This document shows positions 6,766 to 49,289 of a stretch of 49,289 nucleotides of DNA, one piece after another; position 1 is the stretch's first letter, and each line of letters begins with the position of its first letter. Source of the stretch: an uncultured Brachyspira sp. (GTDB lineage Bacteria > Spirochaetota > Brachyspiria > Brachyspirales > Brachyspiraceae); contig NZ_CALXRM010000022.1 of NCBI RefSeq assembly GCF_944390845.1, positions 1 to 49,289 on the forward strand. Direction: 5' to 3'. The notes beneath the pieces are model-generated. The model had not been told where the DNA came from, searched no databases, and saw only the letters and a list, made by a program, of their open reading frames with translations. A program made the position numbers and the translations under genes.

Positions 6766-7073
6766 CCCACCCTATATCTTTTAAATGTTTTCAGTTGCTT
6801 TTACTATATTTTCCTTTTAATTTCATACTGATATTTTAACCACCCACCCTAGTTATTTTTAAATTTATGATGCTTATACCGCACGCTGAATAAAATTAAC
6901 AATATAACACAATCTTTAATTATAATATAATCATATAATTAAATTTAATTAACCGTGCGTTAAATAGATTTTAAATCTCAAAATCATTTGGGCGGGCGTG
7001 AACATTTCTTTTTAAACAATAAAAAAAATTAAATTAAAAATTGCAGATGAATACAATAAAGATAGAGGGCGGG
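6766..7073. repeat. Mirrored lattice repeat, locus 1
   Basis: Order along the plus strand: CCCACCC (6766), CCCACCC (6843), CGCACG (6880-6885), CGTGCG (6954-6959), GGGCGGG (6990), GGGCGGG (7067). The two halves are mirror complements around the central 80-bp CGCACG/CGTGCG hairpin, so the whole 308 bp can fold into one long imperfect stem. It sits between the convergent flgD and bgl operons. Six related loci are in this window. Confidence 0.85.
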
Positions 7074-7207: not shown

Positions 7208-9219
<2,012 letters not shown>

Positions 9220-11257: not shown

Positions 11258-11309
11258 AAATATATATTAAATCCTATAAATATTTTCTATTAATAAAAAA
11301 CAAATAATT

Positions 11310-11849
11310 TTATTCTCTCCTCTTTGCCTTCTCTATATGTATAGTTAAATATAATTTCTCCTCATCGCTTATATCATACGAATAAGAAAGTAAAATATAT
11401 TCTGCTATTTTTAAAGTGCATTCATAAGCTTCTTTATATTTCATCTTCACTACTGAAAGCAAATCTTCATCTTCTTTATCATTATAAATATTTTTTTGAA
11501 ACAATCTCAAAGCAAAAAATTTTAAATGAGTTATAAATCTATTATAATACAAAGATTCTTCATTGAACTTTATATTAAAATGTCTTTCTACTATCATAAC
11601 TATTTTTTGTATAAGCTTTGTAATCTCTCCCATTTCTTTTATGCATCCGTAATCATCATTAGTTTGAGCATTAACTATATGAAGTGCTATAAATCCTGCC
11701 TCATAATCTGAAAGTCTTATATTGAAATCTTCTTCTATAATATCTAAAGCTTTCAAACCTATATTGTATTCATCTTTATAGAATTTTTTTATATCCCAAA
11801 GCATCATATTTTTTATATTGACATTTTCTTTAGTTCTAACTATTTCCAT
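11310..11849 (-). CDS. BglG/LicT antiterminator, C-terminal fragment (PRD1 rest and PRD2)
   Basis: 179 aa carrying most of PRD1 (conserved His in GFIALHIVNAQ) and all of PRD2 (RFITHLKFFALRL and LYLTIHIEKAKRR). PRDs are phosphorylated by the PTS to switch antiterminator activity. The frame opens with ATG at 11849 formed inside the (AT)6 tract, overlapping the stop of the N-terminal fragment by 10 nt, with no SD of its own. Translation would need coupling to, or frameshifting from, the upstream fragment. Loss of one AT would fuse both fragments into a 281-aa protein, close to LicT (277 aa). Treat as half of an interrupted gene. Confidence 0.85.
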   Translation of the reverse strand: MEIVRTKENVNIKNMMLWDIKKFYKDEYNIGLKALDIIEEDFNIRLSDYEAGFIALHIVNAQTNDDYGCIKEMGEITKLIQKIVMIVERHFNIKFNEESLYYNRFITHLKFFALRLFQKNIYNDKEDEDLLSVVKMKYKEAYECTLKIAEYILLSYSYDISDEEKLYLTIHIEKAKRRE

Positions 11850-12157
11850 ATATATATATGATCCATTAAAGTGATATATAAAAAATCATTTAAACTTCTT
11901 TCTGCTTTAGTTTTAGCATACGTAATAATTTTTTCTGTGGTATTTAAATATTCTGCCGGTATATCTTTTAATAATTGCTGAAGTTTGCTGTTATTATCTG
12001 AATTTTCCAATAGAAAAGTTTTATCAATTTTTCCGTCATCTATTATATCGACTACTTTTTTCCCAAAGGCTATACCTCTGCCCATAACAATTTTTTCTGT
12101 TTTGCCTTCTTCAAAAATAACAACGAAATTATTATTAAGTATCTTTCCTATTTTCAT
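11840..12157 (-). CDS. licT: BglG/LicT antiterminator, N-terminal fragment (CAT RNA-binding domain)
   Basis: 105 aa holding the complete co-antiterminator (CAT) RNA-binding domain (about 1-57, with MKIGKILNNNFVVIFEEG and VMGRGIAFGKKVVD) and the first helices of PRD1 up to YITLMDHIY. The frame then reads IWK-stop because of an (AT)6 tract. Typical homologues continue DHI-x-FAIER-x-K-x-G-x-x-IKN. Exactly this spacing is regained in the downstream frame if one AT is removed. In the family, isolated CAT domains can antiterminate without sugar control, so this fragment might be active. Good SD AGGAG upstream; the leader has a promoter, RAT-like sequence and intrinsic terminator. Confidence 0.88.
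   Translation of the reverse strand: MKIGKILNNNFVVIFEEGKTEKIVMGRGIAFGKKVVDIIDDGKIDKTFLLENSDNNSKLQQLLKDIPAEYLNTTEKIITYAKTKAERSLNDFLYITLMDHIYIWK
11848..11859. repeat. (AT)6 dinucleotide tract interrupting the antiterminator gene
   Basis: Twelve bases of alternating AT between GATC and GG on the minus strand. With five units the reading frame runs DHIYMEIVRTKENVNIKN and joins both antiterminator halves; with six it stops at DHIYIWK. Confidence 0.9.
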
Positions 12158-12171
12158 AAGGACTTCTCCTA

Positions 12172-12244
12172 AAATAAAAAAACCTATTTATATAAAAACA
12201 AAATATACAATACTTCCGAATTTCGTCTTTATATAAATAGGTTT
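12172..12244 (-). terminator. Leader terminator before the antiterminator gene
   Basis: Perfect 17-bp arms AAACCTATTTATATAAA (minus strand, 12228-12244) and TTTATATAAATAGGTTT (12180-12196) around a 31-nt loop, followed by a U-run. It lies between the promoter at 12298-12326 and the start at 12157. The first arm overlaps the 3' end of the RAT-like element, the arrangement used for antitermination by this protein family, suggesting autoregulation. Confidence 0.8.
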
Positions 12245-12326: not shown

Positions 12327-12459
12327 GGATTTTTTTATATTAACTTGTATAAAGCTATGATAAAACTTTTCTTTCTTTTTTAACTTTAAATAATAAAAAA
12401 ATTAAATTTTAAACTGCAATTTTGACAACACAGTTTATTTAAATTTGTTATGCTTATAC

Positions 12460-13224
12460 CGCACGGTGAATAAAATTAGCAATATAACAATCTTTTTAAT
12501 TATAATTTAATCACATAATTAAAATTCATTAAACGTGCGTTAAATAGATTTTAAATTTAAAAATCATTTGGGCGGGCGTTAACATTTCTTTTTAAACAAT
12601 AAAAAAGATAAAAGTAAAAATTGCAAATAAAAGCAATAAAGATATAGGGCGGGCAAATGTAATTAAACTTTAAAGCTCTATTTTAAATCCCACCCTATTT
12701 CCTTTAAATTTATCTATGTTGTTTTTACTTTATTTTCTTTTTAATTTTAAACTCTCATTTTTACACCCACCCAAGTTATTTTTAAATTTATTATGCCTAT
12801 ACCGCACGGTAAATAAAATTAACAATATAATAAAATTTAAAATTATAATATAATCATATAACTAAATTTCATTAACCGTGCGTTAAACAGATTTTAAATT
12901 TAAAAATCGCTTGGGAGGGCGTGAACTTTTCTTTTTAAACAATAAAAAATACAAAATCTAAAATTTAAAATAAAAGCAATAAAGATAAAGGGCGGGCAAA
13001 TGTAATTAAATTTTAAAGCTTTATTCTAAATCCCACCCTATATCTTTTAAATGTTTTGCAGTTGCTCTTACTTCATTTTCTTTTTAATTTCATACTGTCA
13101 TTTTAACACCCACCCAAGTTATTTTTAAATTTATTATGCCTATACCGCACGGTGAATAAAATTAACTATAAAAAATAATTATTAATTGTATTTAAATTAA
13201 ATATAAGGCTTCACTTACCGTGCG
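12460..13224. repeat. Mirrored lattice repeat, locus 2 (tandem array)
   Basis: Three CGCACG/CGTGCG hairpins (12460-12539, 12803-12882, 13146-13224) recur with a period of exactly 343 bp. Between them lie GGGCGGG (12570, 12647), CCCACCC (12689, 12766), then GGGAGGG (12913), GGGCGGG (12990), CCCACCC (13032, 13109). Corresponding spacings in the two periods agree to the base. No open frame of note is present. It lies upstream of both the bgl operon and the divergent MFS gene at 13456. Confidence 0.92.
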
Positions 13225-16391: not shown

Positions 16392-16409
16392 TTTTACTCC
16401 ATTTATTTT

Positions 16410-16510
16410 TTATATACAAAAAATTTTTAAGTTTATTAATTTTTTGCTGTTCTTTTTCCCGTTACTTCGCCAAGAACCATACGAAGTACGCCTCGCGGCG
16501 AAACTGCAAG
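16410..16510 (-). repeat. Promoter-bearing dispersed repeat, copy 2
   Basis: On the minus strand a GC-rich block is followed by CGGGAAAAAG, an A-rich stretch, AACTTAAAAATT and TATATA, as in the copies at both window ends. The promoter-like pair is TTAATA (16434-16439) and TATATA (16411-16416) with 17 bp between, 20 bp before the flavoprotein start. Confidence 0.6.
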
Positions 16511-23537: not shown

Positions 23538-23957
23538 CGCACGGTAAGCAAATCCTTATATATAAATTAAATACAATTAACAATTACTCTATATAGTTTA
23601 TTTTATTCAGCGTGCGGTATAGGCATAACAAATTTAAATAAAACTTTGGTGGGTATTAAAATAACAATTAAAAATAAAAAGGAAAATACAGTAAAAATAA
23701 CATAAAAAAATTTTTTATATATAGGGTGGGATTTAAAATAAAGCTTTAAAACCTATTTACATTTGCCCGCCCTCTATCTTTATTATTTTATATGCAATTC
23801 TTAATTTTATATTCTTTATTGTTAAAAAAAATGTTAACGCCCGCCCAAATGATTTTTAAATTTAAAATCTATTTAACGCACGGTTAATGAATTTTTAATT
23901 ATATGTTCAAATTATAATTTTAAATTGTATTATATTGTTAATTTTATTCAACGTGCG
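23538..23957. repeat. Mirrored lattice repeat, locus 3
   Basis: Hairpins 23538-23616 and 23877-23957 bound the element (420 bp). Inside are TGGTGGG (23647), GGGTGGG (23724), CCCGCCC (23766) and CCCGCCC (23840). The order equals loci 6 and 7, but the CCCGCCC arm that is on the left side elsewhere is on the right here, so this copy is inverted. It fills the gap between the divergent SGNH and aldo/keto reductase genes; no gene inside. Confidence 0.88.
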
Positions 23958-24934: not shown

Positions 24935-25122
24935 CGCACGCTGAACTGTATTAAAAATAGAAACTAATTAATAATATAATTATAGAATAAAATACATTCA
25001 CCGTGCGTTAATCAAATTCTTAAACTAATAACAACTTGGGTGGGTGCTACAATAAAAAAATAAAGTAATCAAGAATGATGAAACTAAAAATTCAAATTAA
25101 ATTATAAAACCTAAAGGGCGGG
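24935..25122 (+). repeat. Mirrored lattice repeat, locus 4 (half element)
   Basis: One hairpin CGCACG (24935) to CGTGCG (ends 25007), then GGGTGGG (25038) and GGGCGGG (25116). It lacks the mirrored half. The hairpin span is 73 bp, the only one outside 78-81. Starts 26 bp after the aldo/keto reductase stop and ends 38 bp before the stop of the convergent gene. Confidence 0.85.
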
Positions 25123-30050: not shown

Positions 30051-30388
30051 TTATTAAATAGACAATATATAAAAACACTATAAATTTATTTGTTTTTATA
30101 TGTTATTAGTCCTGCTTATTTTCGGTATAATGCATAGTAAATATGAAGACTATGGTAATTTTGTTATGATAAAATATTAATTTTAATGTGTTTTTTACGA
30201 GATGAAAAAACTATCATTTTATAGGAAATTCAAAAATATATAGCTAATACAAGGATAATTTGTATCATATAAAATGATATGCAATTATATATTGATTATT
30301 AGTTAAACTTTTTATTTTAAATATTGACATTATAATTTAATATTTTATAATATTTTTATGAAAAGAATATTTACTTTATTAAATAATA

Positions 30389-30459
30389 CACTCGACACTC
30401 GACACTCGACACTCGACACTCGACACTCGACACTCGACACTCGACACTCGACACTCGAC
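30389..30459. repeat. Heptanucleotide tandem repeat (CACTCGA)10
   Basis: Ten perfect copies of CACTCGA plus one base. It stands in the 756-bp gap between the smc start and the lipoprotein gene at 30744. The rest of that gap is AT-rich and holds the smc promoter; no gene is seen. GC content of the tract (4 of 7) is far above the surroundings. Confidence 0.97.
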
Positions 30460-32211: not shown

Positions 32212-32523
32212 CGCACGCTGTACAAAGCTATAGAATAAAGTGCATTAAAATTCTGAAATTATCTATAAATTAAATTCGGTTATCCGTGCGTTGAACAGAC
32301 TCAAAAATTAATAAAAACTTGGGCGGTGTACTAGCCGTACGGGCTTGCCGAACGGTAAAGCTTTTTCTTACAGAAAGTACAATGTACGTTCGGGATAATG
32401 CATTTTAGTTTAAGCAGATTTTAAATTTAATAATCGCTTGGGTGGGGACTTCAAGTGATATTTCGAGCTGTGAAGGTAAATAAAATTATATTTCAGAACA
32501 AGTATAAAAGTTTAAAGGGTGGG
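32212..32523 (+). repeat. Mirrored lattice repeat, locus 5 (rearranged)
   Basis: Hairpin CGCACG (32212) to CGTGCG (ends 32290), then GGGCGG (32321). Instead of the next motif 77 bp on, there is a ~119-bp insertion. It includes a GC-richer stretch (about 32333-32400, with CCGTACGG and GTACAATGTAC palindromes) and a second GGGTGGG (32440), after which GGGTGGG follows at 32517, again 77 bp on. It looks like a join between two copies. Confidence 0.75.
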
Positions 32524-34297: not shown

Positions 34298-37156
34298 ATG
34301 CCTGACATAAAAAAAGAAATACAATATTACTATGATAAAGCAAACTCGTTTTTTGAACTTGGAAGACATCAGGAGGCTTTGAATTGTAATGATAAAGCTA
34401 TTTCATTAGATGACAAATTTTATAAGTCATATTATTTTAAAGGCAATTCATTAAAAAATATTGGTAAAAACAAATACAATGAAGCTATAGTATGTTTTGA
34501 CAAAGCAATAAAACTTAATAATAAAGATTTTGATTCCTATTATAATAAAGCTTTAATTTTATTTGAACTAAAAAAATATGAGGAAGCAATAGATGTAATT
34601 AATCTGTCTTTAGAAATTGATGATGAAAACAGTAATGCATATTATTATAAAGGACTTTGTTTATATAATTTAAAAAAATATAAAGAGGCTATAGAAGAAT
34701 TTGATAATACTGTAAAAATAGATAGCCAGTATAGCAAGGCATATTATTATAAAGGATTAAGTTTATACTATTTAAAAAGATATGAGGAAACTATAGAAGA
34801 ATTTGATAAGTATTTAAAAATTGCTGATCAGTGCGATAATTCATATTATTATAAAGGGCTTTCTTTATTTGAATTAAAAAAATATGAGGAAGCATTAGAA
34901 AGTTTAAAAAGCACAAACAATTTTAATAAATATGACATGTATTATTTTATGGGCGAGATTTATGATATAAAAAATAACTATAAAGAAGCCATTAAATATT
35001 ATGATAAAGCATTAAAAAATTATAAAGAAAAAAATAATGCAAGAGACTATTATATAATAGGTATGACATTATACAAATTATCTCTTTTTGATAATGCTAT
35101 CGATAATTTCAATAAGGCATTATCATTTATATTTGAAGATAAATATAGCAATACTGAAGATATTTTGAATTACTGCAATAATATTTTAAAACTGGAAAAT
35201 AATAATAAAGTTTTTTATGCCTATAAAATGATGGCCTTGATTTTGTTGAACAGATATGATGAAGCATTGTCACTATATAACAATGTAGAAAAAAATAATG
35301 AAGTTTTATATGATGCAGAAATTTATAAAAAAGCTTTGAATATATTAAAAGAAAAAAATAAAATAAATGATGAACATATTGTAAAAGGTTATGACAAAGC
35401 TATATCATTAAACCCTAAAAATGAAAAAAGCTATAAAGAAAAAATAGAGTTCTTAAAAAGTATAGGAAAAAATGACTTAGTTGTAGAATGTTACAATGAG
35501 TTAATAAAATTAAATCCTAATAATATAGATATATATAAAGAAAAAATAGAGTTCTTAAAAAGTATAGGAGAAAATGACTTAGTTATAGAATGTTATAATG
35601 AGTTAATAAAATTAAATCCTAATAATATAGATATATATAAAGAAAAAATAGAGTTCTTAAAAAGTATAGGAGAAAATGACTTAGTTATAGAATGTTATAA
35701 TGAGTTAATGAAATTAAATCCTAATGATATAGATATATATTATAAAGAAAAAATAGAGTTCTTAAAAAGTACAAATAAAAATGATTTAGCTACAGAATGT
35801 TATGATGAAACTATAAAGTTAAAACCTAATGATATAGTAAACTATAAAGAAAAAATATACTTATTAAAATGTATAGGGCGAAATGATTTAGCTATAGAAT
35901 GTTATAATGAGTTAATAAAATTAAATCCTAATGACATAAATTCTTATAGAGGAAAAATTGATATATACAAAGCATTAGCTTATAATTCTAAATACAATGA
36001 TGACATAGAAAAATATTATAATTTAGCTATAGAATGTTATGATGAATTAATAAAACTAAAAACTGATGATATAGACTCTTATATCGGAAAAGCTTATATA
36101 TACAAAATATTAGTTAATAAATCTATAGATAAAAAAAAATACTGTAATTTAGCTATAGAATGTTATGATAAATTAATAAAACTAAAAATTGATTATGCTG
36201 ATTCTTATAAAGGAAAAGCTTATATATACAAAACATTAGCTTATGATTCTAAATACAATGGTGACAGAAAAAAATATTATAATTTAGCTATAGAATGTTA
36301 TGATAAATTAATAAAACTAAAAATTGATTATGCTGATTCTTATAAAGGAAAAGCTTATATATACAAAACATTAGCTTATGATTCTAAATACAATGGTGAC
36401 AGAAAAAAATATTATAATTTGGCTATAAAATGTTATAACAAAACCATAAAGTCAAATACAAAGAATATAGAAAACTATAAGAAAAATGATTTGACTATAG
36501 AATATTATGATAACATAATAAAATACACTGATACAAATATAAAAATATATAAAGCTAAAATAAAATTCTCCAAGAAATTAGCTGATCAAAATAATAATCA
36601 AATTATGGAAATAAAAAATGAATATAAAAATTATAATAAAAGAAAATATAAAAAAGAAATTAATAAATTAAATAAAGAAAACAAAAAATATTATAACTTA
36701 GTTATAGAAGATTATGATAATATAGTAAAATCAAATGATAAAAATATAGAAATCTATAAAGAAACAATAGAGTTATTAAAAAGTATAGGTAAAAATGATT
36801 TAGTTATAGAATATTATAATGAGTTAATAAAATTAAATAATACTAATATTATAGAAATCTATAAAGAAAAAATAGAGTTATTAAAGAAATTAGCTGATCA
36901 AAATAATAATCAAATTATGGAAATAAAAAATGAATATAAAAATTATAATAAAAGAAAATATAAAAAAGAAATTAATAAATTAAATAAAGAAAACAAAAAA
37001 TATTATAACTTAGTTATAAAAGATTATGATAATATAGTAAAATCAGATGATAAAAATGTAGAAATCTATAAAGAAAAGATAGAGTTATTAAAGAAATTAG
37101 CTGATCAAAATAATAATCAAATTATGGAAATAAAAAATGAATATAAAAAATTATAA
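34298..37156 (+). CDS. Large TPR-repeat protein, N-terminal part
   Basis: 952 aa almost wholly of tetratricopeptide repeats; no signal peptide. Early repeats are standard 34-mers (YYYKGLSLFELKKYEEALES). Later ones are expanded: a 102-bp unit (KEKIEFLKSIGENDLVIECY) recurs from about 35430 to 35760. A 135-bp unit is duplicated without change at 36151 and 36286. A block with LADQNNNQIMEIKNEYKNYN occurs at 36581, 36893 and 37100. In the third block the A5 tract becomes A6 (37145-37150), and the frame stops at EYKKL. The rest continues in 37137-37688. Probably a protein-interaction scaffold. Confidence 0.85.
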   Translation: MPDIKKEIQYYYDKANSFFELGRHQEALNCNDKAISLDDKFYKSYYFKGNSLKNIGKNKYNEAIVCFDKAIKLNNKDFDSYYNKALILFELKKYEEAIDVINLSLEIDDENSNAYYYKGLCLYNLKKYKEAIEEFDNTVKIDSQYSKAYYYKGLSLYYLKRYEETIEEFDKYLKIADQCDNSYYYKGLSLFELKKYEEALESLKSTNNFNKYDMYYFMGEIYDIKNNYKEAIKYYDKALKNYKEKNNARDYYIIGMTLYKLSLFDNAIDNFNKALSFIFEDKYSNTEDILNYCNNILKLENNNKVFYAYKMMALILLNRYDEALSLYNNVEKNNEVLYDAEIYKKALNILKEKNKINDEHIVKGYDKAISLNPKNEKSYKEKIEFLKSIGKNDLVVECYNELIKLNPNNIDIYKEKIEFLKSIGENDLVIECYNELIKLNPNNIDIYKEKIEFLKSIGENDLVIECYNELMKLNPNDIDIYYKEKIEFLKSTNKNDLATECYDETIKLKPNDIVNYKEKIYLLKCIGRNDLAIECYNELIKLNPNDINSYRGKIDIYKALAYNSKYNDDIEKYYNLAIECYDELIKLKTDDIDSYIGKAYIYKILVNKSIDKKKYCNLAIECYDKLIKLKIDYADSYKGKAYIYKTLAYDSKYNGDRKKYYNLAIECYDKLIKLKIDYADSYKGKAYIYKTLAYDSKYNGDRKKYYNLAIKCYNKTIKSNTKNIENYKKNDLTIEYYDNIIKYTDTNIKIYKAKIKFSKKLADQNNNQIMEIKNEYKNYNKRKYKKEINKLNKENKKYYNLVIEDYDNIVKSNDKNIEIYKETIELLKSIGKNDLVIEYYNELIKLNNTNIIEIYKEKIELLKKLADQNNNQIMEIKNEYKNYNKRKYKKEINKLNKENKKYYNLVIKDYDNIVKSDDKNVEIYKEKIELLKKLADQNNNQIMEIKNEYKKL

Positions 37157-37688
37157 TAAAGGAAAATATAAAAAAGAAATTGATAAATTGGTTAATAAAT
37201 TGAACGAAGAAAAAGAAAAATATAATAATTTATTTATAGAAAGTTGCAGAAAGATGATAGAAGTTAATCCAAATAATATAGAAAGCTACAAAGAAAAAAT
37301 AGACTTCTTAAAAAGTACAGGCAAAAATGATTTAGTTATAGAATGTTATGATAAGATGATAGAAGTTAATCCAAATAATATAGAAAGCTACAAAGAAAAA
37401 ATAAACTTCTTAAAACAATTAGCTGATCAAAATAATAATTTGATTATAGTAAAAAAATATATCAGTTCAAATAAAGAAAAATGTGAAAAAGAAATTGATA
37501 AATTGGTTAATAAATTGAATGAAGAAAAAGAAAAATATTATAATTCGGCTATAAAATGTTATGATGAAGCTATAAACTTAAAGCCTAGTATAGATCTTTA
37601 TGAAGGAAAGGCTCAAATTTTAGATTTATTAAAAAGATACTCTGAAGCTGAGGAGTGTAGAAAGCTTAGTAAAAAATTAAAAATATGA
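37137..37688 (+). CDS. Large TPR-repeat protein, C-terminal part after frameshift
   Basis: 183 aa in the +2 frame relative to the preceding gene, overlapping it by 20 nt. It continues the same repeat: NYNKGKYKKEIDKLVNKLNE follows where the upstream protein breaks, and TPR units (SYKEKIDFLKSTGKNDLVIE, AIKCYDEAINLKPSIDLYEG) run to the end. There is no SD, so independent translation is doubtful. Removing one A at 37145-37150 gives a single 1129-aa protein. It may be a phase-variable, decayed or mis-sequenced end of the same gene. Confidence 0.75.
   Translation: MNIKNYNKGKYKKEIDKLVNKLNEEKEKYNNLFIESCRKMIEVNPNNIESYKEKIDFLKSTGKNDLVIECYDKMIEVNPNNIESYKEKINFLKQLADQNNNLIIVKKYISSNKEKCEKEIDKLVNKLNEEKEKYYNSAIKCYDEAINLKPSIDLYEGKAQILDLLKRYSEAEECRKLSKKLKI
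37145..37150. repeat. A6 tract at TPR-gene frameshift
   Basis: TATAAAAAATTATAATAAA here; the two other copies of the same block (about 36626 and 36938) read TATAAAAATTATAATAAA with A5 and stay in frame. Confidence 0.85.
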
Positions 37689-39534: not shown

Positions 39535-39955
39535 CGCACGCAGAATAACACTACAAATATAAATTAATTATAATTACAATCCAATCTATAAATAACAATT
39601 CGTTTACCGTGCGTTAATTAAATTTTAAATCTAATCAAAACTTGGGCGGGTATGCTTTTACAATTTAAGCTTTAAAGAATAAGAAATTATAATCTCAAAT
39701 TAAAACAAATAATTTTAAAGGGCGGGATATGTAATAAAAGCTTTAAAGTTTAATTACATTTGCCCACCCTCTATCCTTATAATTTAAATTTGACATTAAA
39801 ACTTTAACTTCTATATTACAAAAATAGAATTTATAATCACCCACCCAAATTTATTAAATCAAAAATGCATTCACCGCACGTAAAAATAAATTTAATATAT
39901 TAAATAATAAAAAACATATTAATATAAATTATATAGATATTATATTTATCGTGCG
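39535..39955. repeat. Mirrored lattice repeat, locus 6
   Basis: Hairpins 39535-39613 and 39875-39955 flank GGGCGGG (39644, 39720) and CCCACCC (39763, 39840); total 421 bp. It begins right after the symporter terminator and fills the 613-bp gap to the DUF3592 gene; no gene inside. Confidence 0.9.
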
Positions 39956-43453: not shown

Positions 43454-43873
43454 CGCACGCAGAATAAAATTAACAATATAAAAAAATTTTAAATTATAAT
43501 TTAAACATATAACTAAATTTCATTCACCGTGCGTTAATATAAATTTTAAATTTAAAAACCACTTGGGCGGGCATGCTTTTTTTATTTCAGATTTAAAGAA
43601 TAAAAAAGTTATAATTTCAAATAAAAATAATAAATTTTAAAGGGCGGGGTATGTAAATAAGTTTTAAAGCTTTATTCTAAATCCCACCCTATTTATTTTA
43701 AATTCTTTCATTTATTTTTACTTTATTTTTCTTTTTAATTTTACACTCTTATTTTAACACCCACCCAAGTTTTTTTAAATTTATAGTTAATACACCGCAC
43801 GCAGAATAAAATTTTCAATATGTAATAATCAATATTCAAATTCAATTATATATAAAATTTCATTAACCGTGCG
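43454..43873. repeat. Mirrored lattice repeat, locus 7
   Basis: Hairpins 43454-43533 and 43796-43873 flank GGGCGGG (43565, 43642) and CCCACCC (43683, 43760); total 420 bp, matching loci 3 and 6. Begins 31 bp after the stop of the preceding gene and fills the gap to 43992; no gene inside. Confidence 0.9.
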
Positions 43874-49159: not shown

Positions 49160-49250
49160 CAATTTAAAATATATACTAAACAATTTTTAAGTTTGTCAAT
49201 TTTTTTATTCAACTTTTTCCCGCCGCACGCCACAGGCGGACAGCGTCAAA
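49160..49250 (-). repeat. Promoter-bearing dispersed repeat, copy 3
   Basis: Minus strand: GC-rich stem CCGC/GCGG around a 9-nt loop, GCGGGAAAAAGTTGA, A-rich stretch, TTGACA (49194-49199), AACTTAAAAATT, TATATA (49170-49175). Closely similar to copy 1 at the other end of the window, in inverted orientation, and to copy 2 at 16410-16510. It points at the 3' end of purA. Confidence 0.65.
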
Positions 49251-49289
49251 GAACCAAAAAGTGCAAATATAAAATTAGTATTAAATCAT

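Follow-up and report, generated by a model that had tools for sequence, protein, structure and literature searches.

The 343-bp array of a Brachyspira contig is one locus of a genus-specific intergenic element family clustered around parS

The 343-bp array at positions 12,460 to 13,224 of the window, by which we mean the whole stretch of 49,289 nucleotides analysed from an uncultured Brachyspira sp., represents a single locus of an intergenic element family that is specific to Brachyspira and has previously gone unnoticed. Elsewhere in the window the same architecture recurs six times, across Brachyspira it is found at dozens of loci per genome, and the family accounts for a large share of the intergenic DNA left blank by annotation. 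Our non-exhaustive search of papers outside the subscription literature returned no account of an element of this kind in Brachyspira.

Architecture and distribution of the family

The array comprises two complete units and a closing module, with an exact period, as the first-pass annotation had described: CGCACG begins at 12460, 12803 and 13146, in two steps of 343 bp, and each G or C motif of the first unit returns in the second at exactly +343. The first hairpin module (12459..12540, unstranded) has CGCACG at 12460 and CGTGCG at 12534 in the sequence, 74 bp apart. It is followed by the GG module of unit 1 on the plus strand (12570..12653), with two GGGnGGG motifs at the 77 bp distance that, as 77-78 bp, is dominant in other species, and by the CC module on the minus strand (12689..12772), in which two CCCnCCC motifs are again 77 bp apart and begin 42 bp past the inner GGGnGGG. 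Hairpin module 2 (12802..12882, unstranded) was placed from both TRF and motif positions, and lies exactly 343 bp beyond module 1. Motif positions also define the GG module (12913..12996, plus strand) and CC module (13032..13115, minus strand) of unit 2, and hairpin module 3 (13145..13224, unstranded), where the arms are 73 bp apart. The CGTGCG copies are at 12534, 12877 and 13219, making the third hairpin 1 bp shorter, while the GGGnGGG pairs (12570/12913 and 12647/12990) and the CCCnCCC pairs (12689/13032 and 12766/13109) are each offset by exactly 343. The two units have diverged at many sites, as was also claimed initially, and are 87% identical over an ungapped alignment; TRF reports a period of 343 with 2.1 copies and 87% matches. 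The chain GTGCG-GGGnGGG-GGGnGGG occurs 11 times in the window versus none in five Markov shuffles, and the regularity of the array is far above chance expectation.

The other members of the family in the window, all listed here without strand, take several forms. There is a partial CC-hairpin-GG copy at 6766..7073, a full unit in the opposite orientation with one GG motif lost at 23538..23957, a half unit at 24935..25122 in which a hairpin with arms separated by 67 bp is joined to GG, and a degenerate copy with a hairpin and GG of altered inner spacing at 32212..32523. Full units are found at 39535..39955, where the element is kept at the orthologous site of genome G009, and at 43454..43873, where it is smaller at the orthologous sites of G009 and G004. 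The element at 23538..23957 is missing from the syntenic gap of B. innocens (L040).

The unit can be written as the chain CGCAC-75-GTGCG-35-GGGnGGG-77-GGGnGGG-43-CCCnCCC-77-CCCnCCC-37-(repeat). Across 1.25 Mb from four genomes, the spacings are 74-76 for CGCAC-GTGCG, 34-36 for GTGCG-GGGnGGG, 77-78 within GG and CC, 36-38 from C to CGCAC, and 42-43 from G to C, with a minor class at 47-48. Chains mostly start and stop at the borders of whole modules (CGCAC..GTGCG, GG or CC), so that half, full and tandem forms result, and the two halves of the unit differ systematically, one being of the GGGCGGG type and the other of the GGGTGGG type. A motif-pattern search matched 23 of the 26 Brachyspira genomes, whereas the 367 other Spirochaetota, among them three of the same taxonomic family, gave no match; reversed-pattern controls gave no matches across all 26 Brachyspira genomes. 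As three of the 26 (G001, G003 and G019) are without the pattern, the function of the element is not universal in the genus. ParB is retained in G001 and G019, the two of these genomes that were searched for it.

Repeats of other kinds are also present in the window. A second dispersed family, of the CCGCCGCACGCCACAGGCGGAC type, occupies 1-87, 16400-16461 and 49162-49289, both contig ends included; a marker of what is seemingly the same family is evenly spread round the G007 chromosome, and comparison with G004 shows one G009 copy to be a clean insertion. Three 197-bp tandem copies (97-100%) at 7208-7798 overlap the end of a glycosidase ORF, with related sequence in L051. The heptamer ACACTCG is repeated about 10 times without error at 30388-30459, and from its sequence this is a possible phase-variation or slippage tract. 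Long, internally repetitive ORFs at 34298-37688 contain many 102-bp and 135-bp coding repeats.

Motif conservation and turnover of units

Substitutions were assessed in 10 orthologous pairs of elements from different species. We see change in 1.3% of motif bases (5/389), compared to 13.6% of the AT-rich filler (p=3e-17) and 10.4% of the flanks. The free middle (fourth) base of GGGnGGG acts as an internal control, since it sits in the same place with the same composition and is under no constraint, and 20.5% of these bases have changed. Because the motifs change so rarely relative to both filler and free base, they appear to be under strong selection, although detection by intact motifs biases the sample somewhat towards conserved motifs, such that the motif/filler ratio may be somewhat inflated.

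The first-pass annotation had treated the CGCAC/GTGCG modules as hairpins, a word kept here as a label, but the idea that they fold is not supported, as the arms of one copy are no more complementary to each other than to the arms of different copies. This lack of compensatory pairing favours recognition by a protein over folding, and the element looks like a protein-bound DNA array, not a hairpin, in which double-stranded motifs at fixed spacing would be recognised. Phased A-tract bending was considered and dropped: the AA/TT spectrum between GG motifs peaks at about 9 bp, with no 10.5-bp signal.

Copy number at the 12460 locus is variable, as the first-pass annotation had guessed. The window has two units, while the orthologous sites have fewer: 1.5 units in G021 and G009 (hairpin-GGCC-hairpin-GG), a half unit in G024, and remnants in G022 and G025. 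Similarity is higher between the two window units (0.85) than between either of them and the G009 unit (0.75-0.77), which indicates duplication or homogenisation after that split. At other loci, G004 and G006 also differ in unit number, in one case by exactly two units and in another by exactly one, and one of the breakpoints falls inside a hairpin module. The earlier suggestion of an array growing by unequal exchange is thus borne out in part, in that whole-unit differences fit exchange, whether by growth or by shrinkage; judged by these comparisons, unequal exchange would be the simplest mechanism for the change in unit number. The element is present in both genomes at 19 of 22 orthologous gaps compared between G004 and G009. 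Synteny breaks are equally rare with and without an element, so a reading of the loci as rearrangement hotspots was dropped.

Position relative to genes, parS and the origin

All of the 130 elements assessed (130/130) are intergenic, and they are enriched in convergent intergenic regions (42% vs 15% background). The array at 12460 itself does lie between divergent genes, as first reported, its minus-strand neighbour being a BglG/LicT-type antiterminator and its plus-strand neighbour an MFS transporter. Relatives of this MFS protein all come from Brachyspira. The antiterminator is split, with its CAT_RBD in the ORF at 11840-12157 and its PRD in the overlapping ORF at 11310-11849, which suggests a frameshift or an assembly error. 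Ahead of this gene, at 12178-12243, there is an inverted repeat, AAACCTATTTATATAAA...TTTATATAAATAGGTTT, that by its sequence is a possible antiterminator target.

In complete genomes, the elements cluster opposite dnaA. Clustering at the terminus was ruled out, because parS and GC skew put the origin inside the cluster. Inverted pairs of parS-like sites are found at the cluster centre in G004, G007, G009 and G010, and the GC skew of G009 turns from negative to positive near position 0, next to its parS. A skew-based placement of oriC in Brachyspira has been reported, in which it is unlinked from dnaA (Mappley et al. 2012, PMC3532143). In the four genomes named above, dnaA and parS are separated by 1.2-1.6 Mb, and ParB too is distant from parS, unlike in most bacteria; none of the papers found studies the organisation of the Brachyspira chromosome. 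Four TTATCAACA DnaA-box-like sites lie within 230 bp (L162 (G009:C2), 11295-11523), inside an intergenic gap of 1 kb that is about 3 kb away from parS, and on sequence grounds this segment is a candidate oriC.

The share of loci at most 500 kb from parS is 70% of 67 in G007, 75% of 71 in G004, 85% of 34 in G010 and 68% of 91 in G009, where the chromosome share would predict 30-33% (binomial p 5e-10 or lower). The circular means of the loci fall 12 kb (G007), 88 kb (G004), 38 kb (G010) and 43 kb (G009) from parS, and in G007, G004 and G010 there are 4-8 loci per 100 kb close to parS but at most 0.5 beyond 1 Mb. The origin bias is a trend in the low-copy genome G011 (57% within 500 kb, p about 0.06-0.07). 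A dispersed repeat used as a control in G007 shows no clustering, with 25% of copies within 500 kb of parS (Fisher p=5e-4). Noncoding DNA is slightly richer near the origin (0.19-0.21 vs 0.12-0.16, a 1.2- to 1.7-fold difference), an excess that consists partly of the elements themselves and is far below the gradient in element density. The window array maps to 3.197 Mb in G009, about 120 kb from parS. A bias in orientation relative to replication, seen among halves, is not significant per element (p=0.18) and was rejected as a feature of the family.

A variant module is embedded in the parS region of three species. In G004, G007 and G009, the two inverted parS sites flank a CGCAC-72/74-GTGCG module, after which come differently spaced G-runs; the module is missing in G010 and G011. 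As the three modules are orthologous, they count as one event. With a module frequency near the origin of about one per 8-9 kb, the chance of inclusion between parS sites is a few percent, so the embedded module is suggestive of, but does not prove, a link between the elements and parS. The parS 16-mer, TGTTNCACGTGAAACA, does not occur inside any element.

Candidate functions and competing explanations

We give an even chance to the explanation that the elements form an origin-domain array of binding sites working like RacA/ram or MatP/matS, with a putative binding protein. The motifs CGCAC/GTGCG and GGGYGGG/CCCRCCC are separated by about 75-78 bp inside a module and by about 36-43 bp from one module to the next, a pattern that gives one composite site per ~115 bp and three per 343-bp unit. 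A putative DNA-binding protein, or a pair of proteins, probably occupies these motifs, and tandem units would add binding capacity. The likely role of the elements would be in marking, compacting or anchoring the third of the chromosome nearest the origin, because they are concentrated there and centred on parS/oriC, while homologous exchange between modules would cause units to be gained and lost. Both the existence of the binding protein and the organising function are what we infer from this arrangement. The enrichment at convergent gene ends counts against an origin-domain role, because it also fits BIME-like repeats. The three genomes without the pattern, the weak bias in G011 and the missing parS-embedded module of G010 and G011 weigh against it too.

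Several known systems offer comparisons. RacA of Bacillus subtilis binds dispersed ram sites that are densest near the origin, and condenses and tethers the origin region (PMC6593407). The Brachyspira elements are alike in that their density peaks around the origin, weakly so in G011, but ram sites are short single motifs and the Brachyspira element is a 343-bp modular array. In E. coli, MatP/matS involves 23 sites in 800 kb (PMC3330122), likewise repeated non-coding sites in one chromosomal domain of similar size; these are 13-bp sites at the terminus, however, whereas the Brachyspira elements are large composites around parS, and their clustering at the parS/skew origin rules them out as members of matS. 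The E. coli Ori macrodomain is organised by MaoP with maoS, a single 17-bp site (PMC5441646), and it is an origin domain that the Brachyspira elements are proposed to organise.

The main rival to an origin-domain role is a selfish repeat of MITE- or REP/BIME-like character, non-autonomous and spread through the genus, with its motifs recognised by the mobilising machinery and its origin bias reflecting preferential insertion or lower purging. We regard this as possible but on the unlikely side. Copies are dispersed, intergenic and in some cases partial, convergent gaps are preferred, some syntenic gaps are empty (e.g. in B. innocens), and three species are without the element. Against this, neither a clean target-site duplication nor fixed ends could be found, the ends falling at varying module boundaries; the syntenic empty sites compared are too diverged to show target duplications. 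Positions are mostly common to species ~88% identical, so transposition is infrequent, and the motifs remain constrained long after insertion while the filler drifts, unlike in dead MITEs. With MITEs the elements share a non-coding, dispersed, inverted-motif organisation, but their ends are modular and no fixed-end terminal repeats were found. REP sequences are palindromes of 20-40 bp (PMC3733652), and REP/BIME arrays resemble the Brachyspira elements in their intergenic palindrome-containing modules, alternating orientation, tandem forms and convergent-gap enrichment; the Brachyspira copies differ in clustering at the origin and in arms that are not kept complementary, a lack of maintained pairing that rules out membership of REP/BIME. 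The viral contigs hold no match beyond chance, their three matches all lying in GC-richer sequence (47-71% GC), so carriage by phage was rejected, and an apparent clean insertion, element 36 of G009, proved to belong to a different repeat family.

A role as gyrase or topology sites like BIME-2 of E. coli, whereby convergent ends near the origin recruit topoisomerase and absorb supercoils, would suit the convergent enrichment, the composite repeats of roughly 115 bp in the unit and the high replication-transcription load of the origin region, but is improbable given that the ~9-bp AA/TT peak is not the helical repeat and that centring on parS is not expected of such sites. More doubtful again is a structured RNA or cruciform, with nested G-C clamps pairing in the transcript to serve as terminators, stabilisers or antisense RNAs. 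The RNA fold of the unit beats its shuffles (z = -4.45), a good score that arises because the mirrored G and C motifs are able to pair, yet the missing compensatory pairing of the arms led us to reject such structure. In addition, 31 of 151 are solo halves that cannot form the clamps, Rfam gave no match, no intrinsic terminator was found, promoter-like sites are at background, and wobble-type motif changes are almost nil. We place least belief in the array being a cis-regulator of its two divergent neighbours. The PTS-antiterminator and MFS genes do border it, but the first-pass proposal of action on both genes is not supported as a general role, with divergent gaps at background among the 130 elements (15% vs 15%) and thus no family-wide preference, and B. 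innocens and sp. G79 carry the MFS gene with no element detected nearby.

A bolder and more tentative form of the origin-domain explanation, which we consider rather unlikely, is a distributed origin 'centromere'. Here dozens of maintained, satellite-like modular arrays, spanning ~1 Mb about parS and either descended from the parS-embedded module or tied to it in function, would build an origin domain via a putative dedicated protein, with unit number as a tunable dose. 

To our knowledge, dedicated dispersed origin-domain sites are known from very few bacteria. The genus-specific family described here, whose motifs are invariant and in fixed register and whose density is symmetric about parS, would provide the bait for its putative protein, and it may allow ideas on the building, evolution and loss of a bacterial origin domain to be tested.
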